A stretch of DNA of 64,000 nucleotides, taken from positions 124,001-188,000 of the forward strand of contig NZ_SUMD01000002.1 of NCBI RefSeq assembly GCF_005049235.1, written 5' to 3'. The notes under the pieces were generated by a model. That model was not told where the DNA came from. It ran no database searches and was given only the letters and a program-made list of their open reading frames with translations. The stretch is from Rhodococcus oryzae. GTDB lineage: Bacteria; Actinomycetota; Actinomycetes; Mycobacteriales; Mycobacteriaceae. Every line of letters starts with the position of its first letter. The stretch's first letter is position 1. This document shows, piece after piece, positions 7,029 through 19,965 of this stretch. Both the position numbers and the translations under genes were made by a program.

Positions 7029-8198
7029 TCAGCCGGGCAGGCGGACGGGCATCAGCAGGTAGGTGTAATCGGTTTCGGGCGCAGCGAACGTGCCGGATTC
7101 ACTCGGCACCGGCTCCTCTTCGGGGGCCGGTCTCAGCACCGCGGGCCTGCTGGGAGTGGTGAACCCGAACGAGACCCGTTCGGTGTGCAGCGAACCGAGG
7201 CCGTCGATCAGGTACCCCGGGTTGAAGGCGATGGTGAGGGGTTCGCCCAGGAACTGTGCCTCGAGCGCCTCCTCGGCGCGGCCGGCATCATCGCCACCGG
7301 CGGCGAGCAGCAGTCCGTCCGCGGAGAACTGCATCCGGACCTGGGCACCCCGCTCGGCGACGAGGGACACACGCTTGATTGCCTCGACCAGCGGCGTCAC
7401 CTCGACGGTGGCGATGGCGGTGTGCTCCGTCGGCAGCAGCTGGCGGAACTTCGGGAACTCGGCGTCGAGTAGGCGGGTGGTGGTGCGCCTGCCCTCGCCG
7501 ACAATTCCGAGCAGACCCTCGGATCCGACCGAGGAACCCACGCCAAATGCCAGCTCAACGGGCGAACTCGAGACTCCACCAAGGGTTTTCGCGGATTCGG
7601 AGAGGGTTTTCGCCGGGATCAGGACGGCCGCGGAGGTGTCGGGGTTCGCCGGGGTCCACTCGATCTGCCGGACCGCGAGACGGAACCGGTCGGTCGCCGC
7701 GAGCACCACGTTGGTGCCCTCGATCTCGACCCGGATGCCGGTCAGCATGGGCAGGGTGTCGTCCTTGCCCGCGGCGATCGCGACCTGGCTGATGGCCTCG
7801 GAGAAGACGTCGACCGGCAACGATCCGGTCTGCTGTGGCAGTTCAGGCAGCTGGGGGTAGTCCTCGACCGGCATTGTGGGCAGCGAGAACTTGGCGCTGC
7901 CACAGGAAATGAGAACTCGGGTGCCGTCGACGGTGACGTCGACCGGCTTCGCAGGCAGCGAGCGGGTGATGTCTGCGAGCAGCTTTCCGGAGACCAGGGA
8001 TTTTCCTGGAACGGAGACCTCGGCGGAGATCCGGACCTGCGCGGAAACCTCGTAGTCGAAGCCGGAGATCGTCAGACCCTGGTCGTCGGCCGCGATCAGC
8101 ACACCACCGAGAACAGGTACCGGAGGCCTGGACGGGAGGCTGCGGGCCACCCACGCGACGGAATCCGCGAAATCCTCCCGAGCGACACGAAACTTCAT
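7029..8198 (-). CDS. dnaN: DNA polymerase III beta sliding clamp
   Basis: 389-residue clamp that tethers the replicative polymerase to DNA as a head-to-tail dimer. The chain begins [21 protein letters not shown] and contains the three repeated clamp domains. It ends [10 protein letters not shown], the usual hydrophobic C-terminus (MPxR) that forms part of the peptide-binding cleft. The ATG at 8198 follows GGAGCTTGGAAGT, which carries the ribosome site; upstream in-frame Met codons lack support. It lies downstream of the oriC region and upstream of gnd. Confidence 0.96.
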
Positions 8199-8365
8199 AC
8201 TTCCAAGCTCCATCGCTCGGCTGATCCTCTCCGTAGGCATGGATATCTGCGGATGCCAGCAGTGTGACACGGCAGAAGCACACCGTATGCCCTTCGCGGC
8301 GAAGTTGAAAGCCGAAAGCCACGCCGGAACCGGGGTCAGCCGGCCGGTTCGGTTGGGTGTGAGCA

Positions 8366-8640
8366 GCCGTGGTCCACAGGACCTGTTTTCAAAGAGCGAA
8401 TTACAAGTAGAGATCAGCAGTAGTAATAGGCACTGTGGATTCTGTGGACGAAGTGTGTAATCCGCTGGTCCGCCGGTGTGGCGCCGTGGGGATCAGTCCA
8501 GGTACGAAACGTGGACAGATGGGGGTCCGCTGTGGATGAGATTTTGTTGTTCACGACTCGGTCCCGGTTCATCCACAGGTTCACGGGGTTGTCCACAGGT
8601 TTGTCCACAGGTGTGAGTAGTTTTCATGAAGATCACAAAA
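8366..8640. other. oriC: DnaA-box cluster between dnaA and dnaN
   Basis: Between dnaA and dnaN I find two perfect TTGTCCACA boxes at 8589-8597 and 8601-8609, in tandem and 12 bases apart. Near-matches are TGGTCCACA (8370-8378), TGTGGACGA (8443-8451), TGTGGATTC (8434-8442), CGTGGACAG (8510-8518), TGTGGATGA (8531-8539) and TCATCCACA (8569-8577). Locally AT-rich pieces at 8400-8430 and 8540-8552, and the TTTTCATGAAGATCACAAAA stretch at 8621-8640, could serve for unwinding. Position and box content match known actinobacterial origins. The exact boundaries and unwinding site are inferred. Confidence 0.9.
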
Positions 8641-8790
8641 GACGGCGAGTCGTGGGCGCGGCGGGTCCGAGGACAGGCCACGGGAACGGTCGAATGCGTC
8701 GAGGCGGCTGAATTACCGGTTCGGTGGAGGGCTGTCATTCCGGCGACGACACGGAACTGCCCGGGTGACACGAATCCGGCAGATAAAGGT

Positions 8791-8825
8791 GTGGGGCGTG
8801 CGACCCCCTGCGGCGCACGCCCCAC
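8791..8825. repeat. 12-bp stem hairpin beside oriC
   Basis: GTGGGGCGTGCG (8791-8802) pairs perfectly with CGCACGCCCCAC (8814-8825) across an 11-base loop. No T-run follows on the plus strand; on the minus strand CCTTTATC follows. It may be a secondary terminator for dnaA or a structural element at the edge of oriC. Confidence 0.55.
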
Positions 8826-8887
8826 CTATAACGATGGTCGTCATCGTGGGGGCGGGGCGCACGCGTAGTGCACTACCTGTTCCGCGG

Positions 8888-8922
8888 CCGGACTACCTGC
8901 GGGTGCCGTGCGGGTAGTCCGG
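8888..8922 (-). terminator. Probable dnaA terminator hairpin
   Basis: CCGGACTACC (8888-8897) pairs with GGTAGTCCGG (8913-8922), a perfect 10-bp stem, 36 bases past the dnaA stop. It lacks a clear U-tract on the minus strand, as is common in GC-rich actinobacteria. Confidence 0.6.
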
Positions 8923-8957
8923 CTTTCGCTCGCGACGCCGCCGTGGCGGGACGAGCG

Positions 8958-13154: not shown

Positions 13155-13736
13155 ATGGCGAATGATCCGGAAATCGGACAGGACGGGGTAGACGAGGTCG
13201 TGTCGGACGTGGTGGTCGAGACCGAGCGCGAGGTCGTGGAGCCCGAGGTCGTGGAGTCGGAGGCAGTCGATGCCGAGGACGAGCTGATCGAGGAGGGCGA
13301 GATCGCGGGTGACTACCTCGAGCAGCTGCTCGATGTCCTCGATTTCGATGGCGACATCGATCTCGACGTCGAGGGTGACCGCGCGATGGTCAGCATCGAC
13401 GGCGGTGACGACCTGTCGAAGCTGGTGGGCCGCAAGGGTGAGGTCCTCGACGCACTGCAGGAACTGACCCGCCTTGCTGTGCAGCAGGTGACCGGCGAGC
13501 GCAGCCGGCTGATGCTCGACATCGCGGGTTGGCGTGCGGGCCGTCGGACCGAGCTCAGCGAGATCGGCGTCGCGGCGGCGAAGCGGGTGCTGGAGTCGGG
13601 CGAGCCGGAGTCGCTGACGCCGATGACCCCCTTCGAGCGCAAGATCGTGCACGACGCCGTCGCCAAGATCGACGGCGTCTCCAGCGAGAGCGAGGGCGCC
13701 GAGCCCTCGCGCCGTGTGGTCGTTCTCAAGGATTGA
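13155..13736 (+). CDS. khpB: RNA-binding protein KhpB (Jag), KH and R3H domains
   Basis: 193 residues. After a strongly acidic N-terminal stretch of about 50 residues there is a KH domain with the GRKG loop (LSKLVGRKGEVLDALQEL). A C-terminal R3H domain follows with FERKIVHDAVAKI, which has the Arg-x3-His motif. It is homologous to M. tuberculosis Rv3920c. KhpB proteins bind RNA and influence cell-wall growth. ATG with AAGGAAAG upstream; last gene before a terminator. Confidence 0.93.
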   Translation: MANDPEIGQDGVDEVVSDVVVETEREVVEPEVVESEAVDAEDELIEEGEIAGDYLEQLLDVLDFDGDIDLDVEGDRAMVSIDGGDDLSKLVGRKGEVLDALQELTRLAVQQVTGERSRLMLDIAGWRAGRRTELSEIGVAAAKRVLESGEPESLTPMTPFERKIVHDAVAKIDGVSSESEGAEPSRRVVVLKD

Positions 13737-13768
13737 TCGGTCCGCATCGATGGATGTGGCCTGACGTT

Positions 13769-13800
13769 GATGGGTCCCCGCTTCCGAGCGGGGGCCCATC
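13769..13800 (+). terminator. Terminator after khpB
   Basis: GATGGGTCCCCGC (13769-13781) pairs with GCGGGGGCCCATC (13788-13800), a 13-bp stem with one G-U pair and a 6-base loop, followed by GTCGTTTCCC. It ends the rpmH operon. Confidence 0.8.
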
Positions 13801-13843
13801 GTCGTTTCCCGGCCTCCAGGTGCGGGCTGAGCGCCCGAATTCC

Positions 13844-14257
13844 CTAGGGTGCCACCGGATTATCATCCGGGACGGCGGGCGGCATACCGGACCCGTAGGG
13901 ATCGAGAATCGCGGCGACGTGCTTCCCCCACCGCTCGTGCGCAGACTGGCGCGTCATCCCCGTCGCGCGCCCGATGGTGGCCCACGTCGCCCCGCAGCGC
14001 CGCAGGCTCATCACCGTCTCGACGGAATCGATCCCGGCGCCCAACTGGATGCGGAGACAGGCGAGTTGCCACGCGAGTTGCCTCTCGGCGGGGATGTCGG
14101 TCCCCTCCTCCGCCAGCCACTCGTCGGATCCGGGAAGAGGACCGGTCCCCACGATGAGGTCGGCCTGGTGACCGGCCTCCAGGACGCCGGCTGCGACCAC
14201 CGCCTCGGAGGCGCCCCCGACGTCTGCCGTGACTGCCCTGTCGATGAGATCGCTCAT
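13844..14257 (-). CDS. Small helix-turn-helix protein of unknown role
   Basis: 137 residues. The C-terminal half holds a recognisable helix-turn-helix, LRRCGATWATIGRATGMTRQSAHERWG, of the kind seen in small actinobacterial DNA-binding proteins related to sigma region 4. The N-terminal half is acidic and unassigned. The ATG at 14257 has GGAAGG about 9 bases upstream. A 23-bp perfect palindrome lies just upstream over the probable promoter, so the protein is likely autoregulated. It has no counterpart at this position in M. tuberculosis and sits at the edge of the parS-rich region; a link to segregation is speculation. Confidence 0.65.
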   Translation of the reverse strand: MSDLIDRAVTADVGGASEAVVAAGVLEAGHQADLIVGTGPLPGSDEWLAEEGTDIPAERQLAWQLACLRIQLGAGIDSVETVMSLRRCGATWATIGRATGMTRQSAHERWGKHVAAILDPYGSGMPPAVPDDNPVAP

Positions 14258-14285
14258 CCGTTTTCGCCTTCCAGAGCGGGTACCT

Positions 14286-14308
14286 GATGTCAGGATGATC
14301 CTGACATC
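14286..14308. promoter_or_regulatory. Perfect palindromic operator over the HTH gene promoter
   Basis: GATGTCAGGAT (14286-14296), one central G, then ATCCTGACATC (14298-14308). On the minus strand TTGACA lies 18 bases before CAGGAT, which is part of the palindrome, so the site would cover the -10 element. A related half site, CCTGACGTC, follows at 14334-14342. Confidence 0.7.
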
Positions 14309-14680
14309 GGCGACTGCTGCTTGTCAAGATCTACCTGACGTCATTGCGAGCTTCGGGTGGCGCGCCCGTCGTGCACCAACCGGCGGTGGGCAATGATTCG
14401 GCTCGCGCGGTCGATTTTTCGGGTTCCATCCCACGTCTCGGCCACCACGGCCCTTTCGTCACGCTGACGAATCTCGTCACGGCGGTACCGTTCGCCCCTT
14501 CTCCCCCGCCGGGCATTCCGGGCCCGTTCGGTGCTGATCCGATCCTCGGCGAGGGTCGCTCCGGTGACGCCGTGTCGGTGTCCTGCGGGGCGGGCCGGTG
14601 CACCCTTCGCCCCTCGATGCGGGTGGACGATCGTCTGGTCATTCGGTCTGACGGACCCCGCGAGTAGGAGGTGCCACAAG

Positions 14681-14689
14681 TTATCCACA
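14681..14689. promoter_or_regulatory. Isolated perfect DnaA box in the parS region
   Basis: TTATCCACA at 14681-14689 matches the consensus exactly and lies about 6 kb from oriC among the parS sites. Confidence 0.6.
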
Positions 14690-14828
14690 CTCGGTGGATC
14701 AATCTGTTGGTGGATTGCGTTCCCCGTGGTCCGGGGCTCGCCGCGGATCGGTTGCGCGGCGATGAGTCGGGCCGTCGCAGTCCTTTCCGCGCACCGAGGA
14801 TGTCGTGATCCGCGGCCGGATCGCCGAC

Positions 14829-14844
14829 CGTTTCACGTGAAACG
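14829..14844. other. parS site 1
   Basis: CGTTTCACGTGAAACG: inner 14 bases identical to the parS consensus TGTTTCACGTGAAACA, perfectly palindromic. Confidence 0.88.
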
Positions 14845-14891
14845 CGAGGGTGGCAAATCGGGCTTGCGCCGCGCGTTGGTTCGGCAGCGGA

Positions 14892-14906
14892 CCCCTCCCC
14901 TCCCCC
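14892..14906. repeat. C-rich tract, copy 1
   Basis: CCCCTCCCCTCCCCC; an identical copy lies at 16828-16842 and a shorter one (TCCCCTCCCCC) at 15041-15051. The opposite strand has three G-runs. Confidence 0.6.
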
Positions 14907-15437
14907 ACCGGGAGGCCGGGCTCCGGCTCCCCGGGGCCCGACGTGTCGGGACCGCCGCCGGGCGGCCCGGTTCTCTCGCTCGGCCATCCCTTGGCCCCGG
15001 GATCGACGGGACACGTGCGGCTGCCGGCCGCGGGAAGCACTCCCCTCCCCCGCGCCGCGGGAACAGCTGTGTCGTCCGCAGTGCCGATCGGTCGCGCCCG
15101 ATGGGAGCCGCCCAGTCGGCGATCGACTCTGCCTCGTGCCCGGGACTGGTCGGGATGGAATCCTCACCGGTCCCGATCGGCGATGCGGAGTACGTAACTC
15201 CGCGAGGTGAGGGCCGGACCGAAGGGCTGGATCGGGGGCGGCGGAGCGCGCGTCGGTCTCGGTCAGAATGCGGCATCGGGCATTCGGCGCGATTCCTGGT
15301 TGCCAGGCAGCTGCCCCACAAGGCGACATTGCTGTGTGGGTCCAATTCGCCTGCCGGCGTGCTCGTTCCCGACCCTGCGTGTGTCCGGGTGACGGAATAC
15401 GGACAAGACGTGGGTCCGGCGGAGATCTTGATTGCTC

Positions 15438-15453
15438 GGGTTCACGTGAAACA
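15438..15453. other. parS-like site 2
   Basis: GGGTTCACGTGAAACA: two mismatches to consensus, both in the left arm. Reverse complement is TGTTTCACGTGAACCC. Confidence 0.75.
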
Positions 15454-15668
15454 TCGAGATCGAACCCGTGAGTCAGATGGTGCGGGAGGCGGGCGTCGAT
15501 CGCGGATCCAGGCCTGATGTGGTGACGCCGCGCGACGAACCGAGACGGGTGTCCCCCCGCCGCGCCTCTTCACCGGAGCGGCCAGTCGGCGGACGGTCGG
15601 TCGAGGTGACCTCCGCGCGGGCGTCCGGCGCCGGGACGTCGCCGATCCCGCGCCAGGCGCGCGGCGGA

Positions 15669-15684
15669 TGTTTCACGTGAATCC
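15669..15684. other. parS-like site 3
   Basis: TGTTTCACGTGAATCC: left arm and centre perfect, two mismatches in the right arm. Confidence 0.8.
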
Positions 15685-15975
15685 CTCCGCCCCGATTCGG
15701 ACCACGAACGAGCTGCGTCCCGCGCGGCGAACGACGGGCGATCCGCGCACGATGGCGACTGCCGATCGTCGAATGGCCCGACCACTGCGGTGCGCGTTGA
15801 CCGAGCGCCCGGCACGTGCGCGTCGTCGACGGCACCCGGCGAAACCGGGGCGGGGCGTCTACTGATGTGATCACCCTCGTCGCGCCCGGGCGGCGGATCG
15901 TGGCGATCGAGAAATCGGGAGCAGCGTGGATGTTCGCCCGACCCGAAGCGACTGGTGTTCTGGCGACCGGCCCGA

Positions 15976-15991
15976 TGTTTCACGTGAATCC
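15976..15991. other. parS-like site 4
   Basis: TGTTTCACGTGAATCC, identical to the site at 15669. Confidence 0.8.
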
Positions 15992-16255
15992 GCGCACGAC
16001 CGGCCTGCCTCGGTCGTTCGGTTGCGGGCGCTACCGGGTTCCGGACGCTCGGATTCGTCCCAGCCGGTCCTCCATGCCCGGGGCGCCTGATCTCCCGGCA
16101 GATCGCGTCGGCAACTGCTGCCGGGAGATTGGATGGAATCCCGCACGCTTCGCAGCCGCGAAGTCGAGGTTCGGCTGAGCTGCAGTCGTTGACCTCACGT
16201 GGGCCGGCCGTCGGGCGGGCGGCGTCCCTAAACGCCCCCTGTCGCGGCATCCGGA

Positions 16256-16271
16256 AGTTTCACGTGAATCC
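16256..16271. other. parS-like site 5
   Basis: AGTTTCACGTGAATCC: differs from the 15669 site only at the first base; three mismatches to consensus. Confidence 0.7.
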
Positions 16272-16430
16272 ACCGACGGGTCGGAATCCTCCCCGGCCGA
16301 GGGGCGAAGTGTGGTGCGAGAGGCCGGACAGTGTCGCCGCTACTCGGGTGGGCCCGAGGCATCCACCCGAGGCGAGGCATCCAGGTGGTCGTGCGCGGAT
16401 AGCGTGACGGGCGCCCGGCCGAGGCGATCC

Positions 16431-16446
16431 GGATTCACGTGAAACA
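16431..16446. other. parS-like site 6
   Basis: GGATTCACGTGAAACA: the exact reverse complement of the sites at 15669 and 15976. Confidence 0.78.
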
Positions 16447-16827
16447 TTCGAACCGTCCAGCGGAGTGGAACCGAGAACACGAACCGCCCCGCTCCCCCAA
16501 GTCGCTCGAACGCCGCCACATCGATCGCCGGGATGCGATCAGCGCTCGTGTCCGCCACTCGAACCGCGATCGGTTCGAGCACGCATCCGCGCTTCTGCCC
16601 CGTACTCGACCGCCAGGGGGGGCGCGCGAGACGCCCCGGCCCGTCCGCCCCGTGCCGGTGCCCGGCGCCGTCCGCCCAACCCCACGCGGAACCCGATTCC
16701 GGGTCCGCGTGTGGTTCTGCCCTCTTGGAGGATCTGGGAAGCCACTCTCCTAGCCGCGGTGTCGGCGTCGATCCCGCCGGGGCGAGATGACCTCAGTCGC
16801 GTGATCGTCTGCGAGCGGGCCAGGTCG

Positions 16828-16842
16828 CCCCTCCCCTCCCCC
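16828..16842. repeat. C-rich tract, copy 2
   Basis: CCCCTCCCCTCCCCC, identical to 14892-14906. Confidence 0.6.
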
Positions 16843-17095
16843 GGTCTCCGGGCGGGCCGATCCTCGGCGTCTTCCCCGCGAATCCCGCCCGGGGTGGCCG
16901 TGTGCCCATCGGCGGTGCCGGTTCCGGGGCGCAGTGGGGCTGTCGTCCGAATCCCAATTCGGCGCCGCGCTGACATCCGGACGGACCTGAGTGACGCACT
17001 CCCCGCTTCCGGCGGCGCGTAATCCGGCCTTCGCGCCCGATGCGGTGCAGAATCACATCGTCAGGGTTTGGGGAATCGCGGGCATCACGGGAGGA

Positions 17096-17111
17096 TGTTT
17101 CACGTGGAACA
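17096..17111. other. parS site 7, at the rsmG start
   Basis: TGTTTCACGTGGAACA: one mismatch to consensus. It covers the two candidate start codons of rsmG. Confidence 0.85.
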
Positions 17112-17766
17112 CATCGAGTCCGAGGACCTGCCTGACGCCGCTCGCACGATCTTCGGAGACCGCCTCGAACTCGCCGCGAAGTACCATCTTTCGCTCGCCA
17201 CCGACGGCGTAGAGCGCGGCCTGATCGGCCCTCGGGAGGTCCCCCGGCTGTGGGAGCGACACCTGCTCAACTGCGCGGTGATCGGCGAGCTGATCGAGGA
17301 GGGTGAGTCGGTGGTGGACGTCGGCAGCGGCGCCGGGCTCCCCGGCATCCCCCTGGCAATTGCGCGCCCCGATCTCCGGATCACCCTCGTCGAGCCGCTC
17401 CTGCGACGATCGGTCTATCTCGCCGAGTTCGCCGAATCGGTCGGGCTGGACATCCTCGTCGTGCGCGGTCGCGCGGAGCAGCCGGGCGTGATCAAGGAGG
17501 TCGGGGGTGCCGATGTCGTGACCTCGCGCGCGGTCGCTCCCCTGGAGAAGCTTGCGCGGTGGTCGATTCCGTTGATTCACGAGGGTGGTCGGATGCTCGC
17601 CATGAAGGGTTCCAGTGCGGCCGAGGAGATTTCCCGGGATCGCGCTTCCCTAACCCGCATGGGTGCTGGCAAGCTAGAGATCGTCGAGTGCGGTGTCGAC
17701 CTTCTTCCCACTCCGACCACTGTGGTTCGGGCGGAGCGTGTCTCCCGGCGATCTCATCGCCGATGA
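17104..17766 (+). CDS. rsmG: 16S rRNA (guanine-527-N7)-methyltransferase RsmG
   Basis: 220-residue SAM-dependent methyltransferase that modifies 16S rRNA. It shows [24 protein letters not shown], the SAM motif [36 protein letters not shown], and [13 protein letters not shown], all typical of GidB/RsmG. Start choice is uncertain. GGAGG ends directly against the ATG at 17095, too close to be functional, and 9 bases before the GTG at 17104, which I prefer. Either way a parS site overlaps the start, so ParB binding could affect its expression. It leads into parA-parB as in M. tuberculosis. Confidence 0.93.
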
Positions 17767-17833
17767 CGGAGTCACCGCGCGCTCGTGTGCGAATGCGACG
17801 ATCCAGCAGGCAAGTCCAGTGAAGGAGCAATCT

Positions 17834-18838
17834 ATGTCGGGTGGACCCGAATCAACTGTTTCACGTGAAACAGCTCACGACGCCTCGAGTTCCACCACCG
17901 ACAACAAAGAGAATCCGTATGCGGCCCCCGCCGCCGCGTACGCAGGCATCTCCCCGCTGGATACCCCCATCGGTGCCGCAGCACAGCGGGCCAGCCAGGT
18001 TCTGCATCCGCACACGGTGACCCTCCCCCGGCCGAAGACCCGTCGGATGCTCACCATCGCGAATCAGAAGGGTGGGGTCGGCAAGACCACGTCGGCGGTG
18101 AACCTGGCGTCGGCCCTGGCCGTGCAGGGGCTGCGGGTTCTCGTCGTCGACCTCGACCCGCAGGGCAACGCCAGCACCGCGCTGGGCGTACCGCACCACT
18201 CGGGCACCCCGTCGAGCTACGAGCTGCTGATCGGTGAGGTCACCGCCGCCGAGGCCATCCAGCAGAGCCCGCACCACGAGGGACTGTTCTGCATCCCGGC
18301 GACGATCGACCTCGCGGGCGCCGAGATCGAACTGGTCTCCATGGTCGCGCGCGAGGGTCGGCTGAAGAATGCGTTGTCCGAGAAGGCGCTGGCCGCGATC
18401 GATGCCGACTTTATCCTGATCGACTGCCCGCCCTCGCTCGGGCTGCTGACGGTCAACGCCCTCGTGGCTGCGAACGAGGTCCTGATCCCCATCCAGTGCG
18501 AGTACTACGCACTCGAGGGTGTCGGTCAGTTGCTCCGCAACATCGAGCTGGTGCAGTCCCATCTGAACCCCGACCTGCACGTGTCGACAGTGCTGCTGAC
18601 GATGTACGACGGTCGCACCAAGCTGGCGGATCAGGTCGCCGAGGAGGTGCGCAGGCACTTTGGCGACAGGGTCCTGCGCGCCGTCATCCCACGCAGCGTG
18701 AAGGTGTCGGAGGCGCCCGGTTTCGGGATGACCGTCCTCGACTACGACCCGGGTTCGCGGGGCGCAATGAGCTATCTCGACGCCGGGCGGGAACTCGCAG
18801 CACGGACCGCAACGACCAACTCGCAGGAGCAGCAGTGA
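17834..18838 (+). CDS. parA: Chromosome-partitioning ATPase ParA (Soj)
   Basis: 334-residue deviant Walker ATPase that binds DNA and drives segregation of ParB-bound origins. The first 70 residues are a disordered extension that encodes the peptide TVSRET at residues 8-13 through a perfect parS site. The ATPase core follows: [13 protein letters not shown] (residues 79-90), [27 protein letters not shown]. The ATG at 17834 is preceded by GAAGGAG at 7 bases. Its TGA overlaps the parB GTG (GTGA), so the two are co-translated. Confidence 0.97.
17857..17872. other. parS site 8, perfect, inside parA
   Basis: TGTTTCACGTGAAACA, exact match to consensus, encoding part of the ParA N-terminal extension. 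The equivalent VSRET peptide exists in M. tuberculosis ParA. Confidence 0.95.
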
Positions 18839-19965
18839 GCCAGAGAAGCAAGGGCGGACTCGGGCGGGGCCTCGCCGCGCTGATTCCCACCGGTCCTGAG
18901 GCGGGACCGCGCCTCGGAAGCGCGGCCGCCGACGTCATCATCGGCAATGCGACCGCACCGATCGCGGTGAAGCCGGCGCCGGTCATCGAGGCGCCCGAGG
19001 CTCCGGAGACCCCCGAGGCGCCGGCGAAGCAGGAGGCCCCCGCGAAGCAGGAGAAGTCGGATCCGCCGACCACTGCGACGCCGTCCACCGATGCTGCGGT
19101 CACGCCGCCGGTCAACGGCGCTGAGGTGGCGGACGGACCCGACCTCTCCCCCGTCGGTGCCGTGTACCGCGAGATCGATGCGGCCCAGATCGAGCCGAAT
19201 CCCAAGCAGCCCCGCCACGTCTTCGACGAGGAAGCCCTCGGCGAGCTCGTCCACTCGATCCGCGAGTTCGGCCTGATGCAGCCCATCGTGGTCCGCCGGG
19301 TCGCCGCCGACCGCTACCAGCTCGTCATGGGCGAACGCCGGTGGCGGGCCAGCCAGGAGGCCGGGCTCGAACGGATCCCCGCCATCGTGCGGGAGACGAA
19401 CGACGGGTCGATGCTTCGCGACGCGCTGCTGGAGAACATCCACCGGGTGCAGCTGAACCCGCTCGAAGAGGCCGCTGCCTATCAGCAGCTCCTCGAGGAG
19501 TTCAACGTCACCCACGACGAGCTGGCCACCCGGATCGGTCGCTCTCGACCGGTGGTGACGAACATGATCCGGCTCCTGAAGCTGCCGATCCCCGTGCAGC
19601 GCCGCGTCGCCGCCGGGGTGCTCTCGGCCGGCCACGCCCGGGCGTTGCTGTCCCTCGAGGCGGGTCCCGGAGCACAGGAACAGCTGGCCGCCCGGATCGT
19701 GGCGGAGGGCCTGTCGGTGCGCGCCACCGAGGAGGCCGTCACGCTCGCGAACCGGGAGGGCGAGCCGGAGCCGGCACCCGCCGCCAAGCGCAAGCCGATT
19801 CAGATGCCCGGCCTCCAGGATGTCGCGGAACGGCTCTCCTCCTCTTTCGACACCCGCGTGACGGTGAGCCTGGGCAAGCGGAAGGGCAAGATCGTCGTCG
19901 AATTCGGCTCGGTGGAGGATCTCCAGCGGATCGTCGAGATGATGGAGTCCCAGTCGCCCGGATAG
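18835..19965 (+). CDS. parB: Chromosome-partitioning protein ParB (Spo0J), CTPase
   Basis: 376-residue parS-binding CTP-dependent clamp. The N-terminal [14 protein letters not shown] box is the ParA-stimulating motif. An Ala/Pro/Glu linker follows, then the CTP-binding domain with [12 protein letters not shown] and [13 protein letters not shown], and the HTH region with [20 protein letters not shown]. The C-terminal dimerisation domain ends [15 protein letters not shown] start at 18835 with AGGAG upstream, overlapping parA by four bases. Its binding sites cluster immediately upstream of the operon. Confidence 0.97.

Follow-up and report, generated by a model that had tools for sequence, protein, structure and literature searches.

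The window analysed here is a stretch of 64,000 nucleotides of Rhodococcus oryzae DNA (assembly GCF_005049235.1, contig NZ_SUMD01000002.1, positions 124,001 to 188,000), in which eight parS-like sites form a dense array next to the genes rsmG, parA and parB. We consider this locus to be the chromosomal ParABS centromere of a Rhodococcus-type actinobacterium, with a probability of about 0.9. This reading is carried by the sites themselves, their concentration at one locus of the genome, the parAB genes beside them, the single match to the ParB_N family, the retention of most sites within DNA that otherwise diverges, and tandem duplication as one way in which sites are gained. ParB binding, clamp loading and SMC recruitment would be expected here from what is known of the family.

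The array of parS-like sites

The sites were scored by their mismatches to the 16-bp palindrome TGTTTCACGTGAAACA: one is perfect, one departs from it at one base, five at two bases and one at three. The perfect site (17857..17872) is found within the 5' part of parA, and the one with a single mismatch (17096..17111) overlaps the start of rsmG (ATG at 17095), where it encodes MFHVE. The other six lie in a gene-free interval (14258..17094). The first of them, CGTTTCACGTGAAACG at 14829..14844, is perfect over its inner 14 bases, and the second, GGGTTCACGTGAAACA at 15438..15453, has a perfect right half. They are followed by three asymmetric sites of the type GTTTCAC / GATTCAC (15669..15684, 15976..15991 and 16256..16271) and by one in which the halves are exchanged, GATTCAC / GTTTCAC (16431..16446). 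All six have two mismatches apart from the site at 16256, which has three, and an imperfect half is present in six of the eight sites of the array. The successive spacings are 609, 231, 307, 280, 175, 665 and 761 bp.

An earlier note on this DNA had placed eight sites at exactly these starts, and they stand far above the level of shuffled sequence. Indeed, TTCACGTGRA has 15 strand matches in the window, against a mean of 0.15 in dinucleotide shuffles of the whole window, and the 16-mer has 8 matches against a mean of 0.05. The note had also described a shared core, which is TTCACGTGAA at seven sites and TTCACGTGGA at site 17096, two sites perfect over the inner 14 bases, which are those at 14829 and 17857, and a location mostly outside genes, which is true of six of the eight.

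Both par genes are linked to the array. The parA gene (17834..18838, + strand) matches PF13614 and related P-loop families; parB (18835..19965, + strand, GTG start) matches PF02195, PF17762 and PF23552, and the relatives of its product among solved structures are ParB/Spo0J proteins. It is also the only PF02195 match in the whole genome at an E value of 0.001. The array lies 6-9 kb from the dnaA-dnaN intergenic region (8271..8957), which contains four DnaA boxes with one mismatch and is, on this evidence, likely to be oriC.

The source assembly has 5,365,841 bases in 31 contigs at 68% GC, and a scan of it, by pattern and not by matrix, shows that the sites are concentrated at one locus rather than spread genome-wide. 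The palindrome TTCACGTGAA is found at 10 places in 5.37 Mb, 7 of them within the array; TTCACGTGRA has 8 of its 22 places there, and the 16-mer with up to three mismatches 8 of its 21. Of these 21, the array holds both places with zero or one mismatch, five of the eight with two, and one of the eleven with three. The three palindromes outside the array are near background, because base composition alone predicts about 1.2 per 5.37 Mb. One of them (contig C2) is inside an open reading frame (ORF) of 1114 codons, and another (C8) is, by our own reading, at the foot of a terminator-like hairpin. The third (G000:C30:203107; L032, 5108-5123) is intergenic and kept in the sister species and in Rhodococcus spelaei, where it is about 352 kb from the array. 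The proposal of the earlier note that this is the main ParB loading centre is partly supported, in that the array holds the best-matching sites of the genome; that ParB loads at all eight is less certain, given that six have an imperfect half and one has three mismatches.

Conservation of the array among relatives

The source genome (G000) belongs to the Rhodococcus spelaei/triatomae group, and it was compared with a sister species (G001), R. spelaei (G003, NZ_VIGH01000001), R. triatomae (G004, AODO01000069) and more distant relatives. In total, 86 par loci were examined, namely the window, five congeners and the best 80 named loci from a larger scan. Two of them, L022 (where the contig ends) and L112, have no jag match and two others (L037 and L038) duplicate congeners, which leaves 82 loci for the measurement of the gap between jag and rsmG.

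Several sites are found just upstream of rsmG in all six congeneric genomes compared. More broadly, the jag-rsmG gap spans 1,666-5,275 bp in 16 of the 82 loci and holds 3-9 sites there (the one at the rsmG start included), whereas in the other 66 it is 790 bp or less, with 0-6 sites and mostly 0-2. This genus accounts for five of the long-gap loci and named Rhodococcus for ten; the remaining one, L043, is on a metagenome contig that bears the label Mycobacterium and encodes an RsmG 80% identical to that of the window. Short gaps are found in R. ruber (L050), in Rhodococcus sp. Leaf247 (L048) and in Rhodococcoides (L049, L051, L054, L055), and long ones also in three further genera met in the motif census described below: g9 (L126, 1,718 bp), g10 (L140, L142) and g24 (L152). 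The assembly nzgw94, from which L043 comes, contains beside this Rhodococcus-like locus with its seven gap sites a further rsmG locus whose gap is short (L066), and it is probably a mixed bin.

The sites persist while the DNA around them does not. Between the window and the sister species, the gap is 58% identical (indels being counted as differences) and rsmG 94%, while the sites, taken in order, are 100, 94, 100, 100, 88, 44, 100 and 100% identical, so that seven of the eight are at 88-100% and only the one at 16431 has no aligned counterpart. For less closely related pairs, hardly more than short motifs of the gap can be aligned. In the sister species, the gap contains a 162-bp tandem repeat (2.1 copies, 98% match) with a parS in its unit, and in L025 a repeat of about 100 bp at 73.5% spans parS sites. 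Judged from these repeats, tandem duplication is one route by which parS sites are gained. In two other genera, the region between rsmG and parB holds 8 parS-like cores (L138, G239) and 13 (L156, G229), interspersed with copies of the C-rich motif described below; these arrays occupy a different intergenic slot.

An oriented C-rich motif

Comparison of k-mers together with the alignment of the source genome with its sister revealed a 12-mer, CTCCCCTCCCCC, which occurs four times in the genome, three times in the gap, and always on the + strand of its contig. The fourth copy (C1:303713, L178) is not near qcrB or par according to tblastn. The first copy in the gap belongs to an exact match to a 17-mer that we term the C-box, CCCCTCCCCTCCCCCAC (14892..14908, + strand, 100% identical in the sister species). 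The other two, GCACTCCCCTCCCCCGC (15037..15053, +, 88%) and CCCCTCCCCTCCCCCGG (16828..16844, +, 100%), are C-box-like, having the exact 12-mer core and departing from the 17-mer pattern. Across 17 gaps, CTCCCCTCC has 25 copies in 11 of them, and none is reversed.

The pattern CCMCTCCCCTCCCCYRC was then searched in 401 genomes of the family, an even draw from a larger group. It gave 131 matches in 91 genomes, against 6 for the pattern read backwards, and the stretches around all 131 were examined (loci L117-L177 and L179-L208, and the window). At par loci with rsmG there are 87 copies, all in sense orientation: the jag-rsmG gap has 39 of them, the rsmG-parA gap 10 and the parA/parB linker 35, with 3 elsewhere. 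Another 28 follow qcrB, again all in sense, so the C-rich strand is the sense strand in 115 of 115 copies at these two kinds of loci. For the 16 copies found elsewhere, which include an antisense one near another ParB-like gene without rsmG (L196), the strands are split 7 to 9. After qcrB, all 26 copies that could be placed are 0-215 nt from the stop codon, and a C-box directly follows the stop codon of jag in L181 and that of qcrB in L151.

We consider it an even bet that the C-box acts on transcription coming from upstream. This reading is preferred because Rho is reported to anchor at cytidine-rich RNA (PMC6797219), because the sense strand is the C-rich one throughout the par and qcrB copies, and because some copies directly follow genes. 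Several observations weigh against it: of the copies assigned to rsmG, only 7 of 13 are within 124 nt of the gene end, and of those assigned to jag, only 10 of 36 are within 132 nt; a hairpin (13769-13800) is already present right after jag in the window; and the 35 linker copies among the 87 could be explained by coding constraint. Many of these linker copies stand at a fixed offset before the ParB domain, and coding constraint may be what drives them.

A DNA-level partner is argued instead by the tight spacing between parS and C-box in two groups. On that reading, to which we would give somewhat less than even odds, the C-box is not an element of transcription or RNA but a site in double-stranded DNA, either for a nucleoid or segregation factor or as a polar barrier to ParB sliding, SMC or replication. 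Of the 52 par copies outside the linker, 16 begin no more than 10 bp downstream of a parS (at -2 to 5 bp), as do 3.4% of random positions taken from these gaps; no copy is within 10 bp upstream, compared with 4.9% of random positions. All 16 belong to g22 and g26. In the R. koreensis and R. jostii group, the distance between the rsmG parS and the copy preceding rsmG is 120-122 or 145 bp. This genus shows a loose spacing, of 47 bp in the case of the window. What argues against such a site is that the motif follows qcrB in an unchanged orientation at 28 loci, 26 of which have no parS core in the stretch examined, and that two copies directly follow a jag or a qcrB stop codon.

The complement of the C-box contains GGGNAGGG, a KOPS motif. 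A reading of the C-box as KOPS was set aside, because the 12-mer is found only four times in the genome and would point towards oriC. Literature searches yielded no description of a strand-specific element tied to bacterial centromeres, only a Streptomyces regulator paper for the letters of the C-box, and nothing on qcrB with Rho-dependent termination in actinobacteria.

Half-site asymmetry and the weight of individual sites

For the comparison of half-sites, gap sites were defined by the CACGTG core and at most three mismatches, a definition that favours one good half and partly excludes sites with two bad ones. With this selection, 17 loci yielded 89 gap sites, of which 45 match GTTTCAC perfectly in both halves, 43 in one half and 1 in neither. 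Within the genus alone, the distribution is very different, with two perfect halves at 4 of 40 sites, one at 35 and none at 1. The variant GATTCAC makes up 27 of the 80 halves in the genus, which is 27 of its 37 imperfect ones, and is absent from the 98 halves of the eleven other gaps. When the asymmetric sites were checked for a common direction, none emerged, the perfect half being on the left or on the right without rule. The recognition-helix segment of ParB is the same in the genus and at the loci of the other gaps, and none of the residues that separate ParB of the genus from 17 other ParBs (two of them incomplete) falls in it. Because the helix is unchanged, we infer that the asymmetric sites would be weaker sites, nucleating ParB less readily than symmetric ones, rather than reflecting an altered specificity.

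It could be, then, that only the near-symmetric sites work (two or three of those at 17857, 17096 and 14829) and that the asymmetric ones, left behind by duplication, are relics in decay or decoys of low affinity. The imperfect half in six of the eight sites fits this view, and so do data from other bacteria: in Corynebacterium glutamicum, where ParB was mapped by chromatin immunoprecipitation sequencing, degenerate sequences with at least three mismatches are reported to recruit no ParB (PMC7083940), and the ParB of Myxococcus xanthus is reported to bind about ten times more weakly to a site with two substitutions (PMC3778016). We nevertheless hold it to be unlikely. Of the five asymmetric gap sites, four keep an identity of 88-100% in the sister species, within DNA that is otherwise 58% identical; the imperfect halves are not random, as the predominance of GATTCAC in the genus shows; and a perfect half is missing from only one of the 40 genus sites, their selection having been limited to at most three mismatches.

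Considerably less probable still is that the gap is what remains of an insertion or of genes that have decayed, with parS sites accumulating there incidentally. Its length does vary widely, only a small part of it can be aligned between species that are not sisters, and a coding-like periodicity is seen in stretches of the gaps of other species (L040, L042, L059). However, none of the 16 long gaps has fewer than three sites, counting the rsmG one, most sites persist while the rest diverges, and the gap of the window has no match to a protein or RNA family. As for the sites being operators of another regulator, CACGTG is a common core of palindromic operators, but the full 16-bp parS consensus at 17857 with parAB adjacent, the presence in most related loci of a site where rsmG begins (usually with one near the start of parA), and the one main cluster in the genome make this very improbable.

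The surrounding genes and the gene-free interval

The gene order is dnaN(-), dnaA(-), rnpA, yidD, yidC, jag, a small gene (-), the array, rsmG, parA and parB, yidD being assigned from its position only. On the - strand, dnaN covers 7029-8270 and dnaA 8958-10697, the start of the latter being uncertain. The upstream border of the array is jag/khpB (13155..13736, +, PF01424), directly 3' of which is the hairpin already mentioned (13769-13800), G+C-rich and terminator-like by our own reading, though without a T run; the intrinsic-terminator scan did not call it. Between jag and the array lies the small gene (13844..14257, -, 137 aa), which has no Pfam match and in which we read a helix-turn-helix-like stretch. 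When searched by tblastn in the 86 loci, six congeners included, it had a match only in the sister species. Downstream of the gap, rsmG (gidB) occupies 17095..17766 (+, PF02527).

The interval 14258-17094 has long ORFs on both strands, and its being coding DNA was considered and rejected: in 300-bp windows, the three-base GC difference is 0.04-0.15 there, against 0.27-0.59 in most windows inside genes, and none of ten ORFs tested has a Pfam match at an E value of 0.1. No Rfam match was found in the whole window. Over 13600-17900, a sigma-70 scan found no promoter, and the intrinsic-terminator scan found one terminator-like site, against 1.7 in shuffles. A block at 14678-14735, within the otherwise diverged gap, is 93% conserved with the sister species and contains a perfect DnaA box, TTATCCACA (14681..14689, +). 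This exact box is present in 2 of 17 gaps, those of the window and of its sister. There is also a single inverted repeat, TTTCGTCACGCTGACGAAT (14454..14472), to which an 11-mer found in 13 of 16 gaps compared, CGTCACTGTGA, is related.

Comparison with known centromeres

The array is of a known kind, because dense parS arrays have been described before. Myxococcus xanthus is reported to have 22 putative parS clustered within 3 kb, at about 4 kb upstream of parA, with one distant site (PMC3899335, PMC3778016), and its consensus is given as of the TGTTCCACGTGGAACG type (PMC7022226). Both arrays are dense, span about 3 kb close to parAB and the origin, and come with distant parS; that of M. xanthus is nearly three times denser. 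In C. glutamicum, an actinobacterium that likewise has multiple oriC-proximal sites, ten parS (parS1-10) of identical sequence are reported in 35 kb, nine of them intergenic, 73 kb from oriC (PMC7083940). The Rhodococcus array differs from it in having eight sites in 3 kb, at 6-9 kb from dnaA-dnaN, mostly asymmetric and six of them in one gene-free interval. Multiple parS have been suggested in a review to improve robustness (PMC7022226).

The mycobacterial par loci share the order jag-rsmG-parA and have parS where rsmG begins and close to the start of parA. In contrast, their gap does not exceed about 110 bp and contains one or two parS but no array, exceptions being the metagenome locus L097 (401 bp) and L043. 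The loci labelled Mycobacterium have 1-2 sites in the gap and 1-3 near the operon, apart from the same two (3 and 4 in L097, 7 and 8 in L043). The earlier note had thus been right that there are more sites here than in mycobacteria, but the density it stressed, while above that of mycobacterial par loci, is unexceptional among bacteria when set beside the reported M. xanthus (PMC3899335) and C. glutamicum (PMC7083940) arrays. The loci of R. koreensis and R. jostii (L039/L136 and L040/L158) likewise have a long gap with parS and C-boxes; they differ in their fewer gap sites, in the lack of GATTCAC halves and in having one C-box 4-5 bp after a parS. A literature search found no paper whose title concerns Rhodococcus parS. 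As variant features of this known kind of array we count the expanded gap, the asymmetry of the half-sites and the C-box, all three of them additions to what the earlier note contained.

A model of the locus and its meaning

In the mechanism that we propose, ParB (18835-19965) would recognise the predicted parS sites, load there as a clamp and spread over the gene-free interval. ParA (17834-18838) would then move the ParB-parS complex, which would probably also recruit SMC, and newly replicated origins, 6-9 kb away, would be segregated first. The asymmetric sites, being presumably weaker at nucleation, may be compensated for by their number. The C-boxes, as Rho entry sites or as a G-rich block on the template strand, might help keep RNA polymerase out of the array, and this is the least certain step.

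Some points weigh against this model. The site at 16256 has three mismatches and the one at 16431 is without an aligned partner in the sister species, while the choice of sites with at most three mismatches biases the half-site counts towards order. Nor need all eight matter, because a C. glutamicum strain with one parS is reported to grow and divide like wild type (PMC7083940).

A broader proposal can be put forward only tentatively, and it is possible rather than probable: that these are two-component centromeres, in which parS is paired with a strictly oriented C-box that would shield or polarise the ParB loading zone. They would be set in a fast-evolving gene-free interval where parS is gained by duplication, with one genus using mostly pairs of a strong and a weak half and the C-box being reused at the 3' end of qcrB.

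For the biology of these bacteria, the finding means that, in one sister pair, centromere DNA turns over fast and yet keeps most of its predicted protein-binding sites. The C-box would be a strand-specific element tied to bacterial centromeres. Finally, the family offers a natural series for the effect of parS number and strength, with 1-2 or 3-9 sites in one and the same intergenic slot, and symmetric or asymmetric ones.

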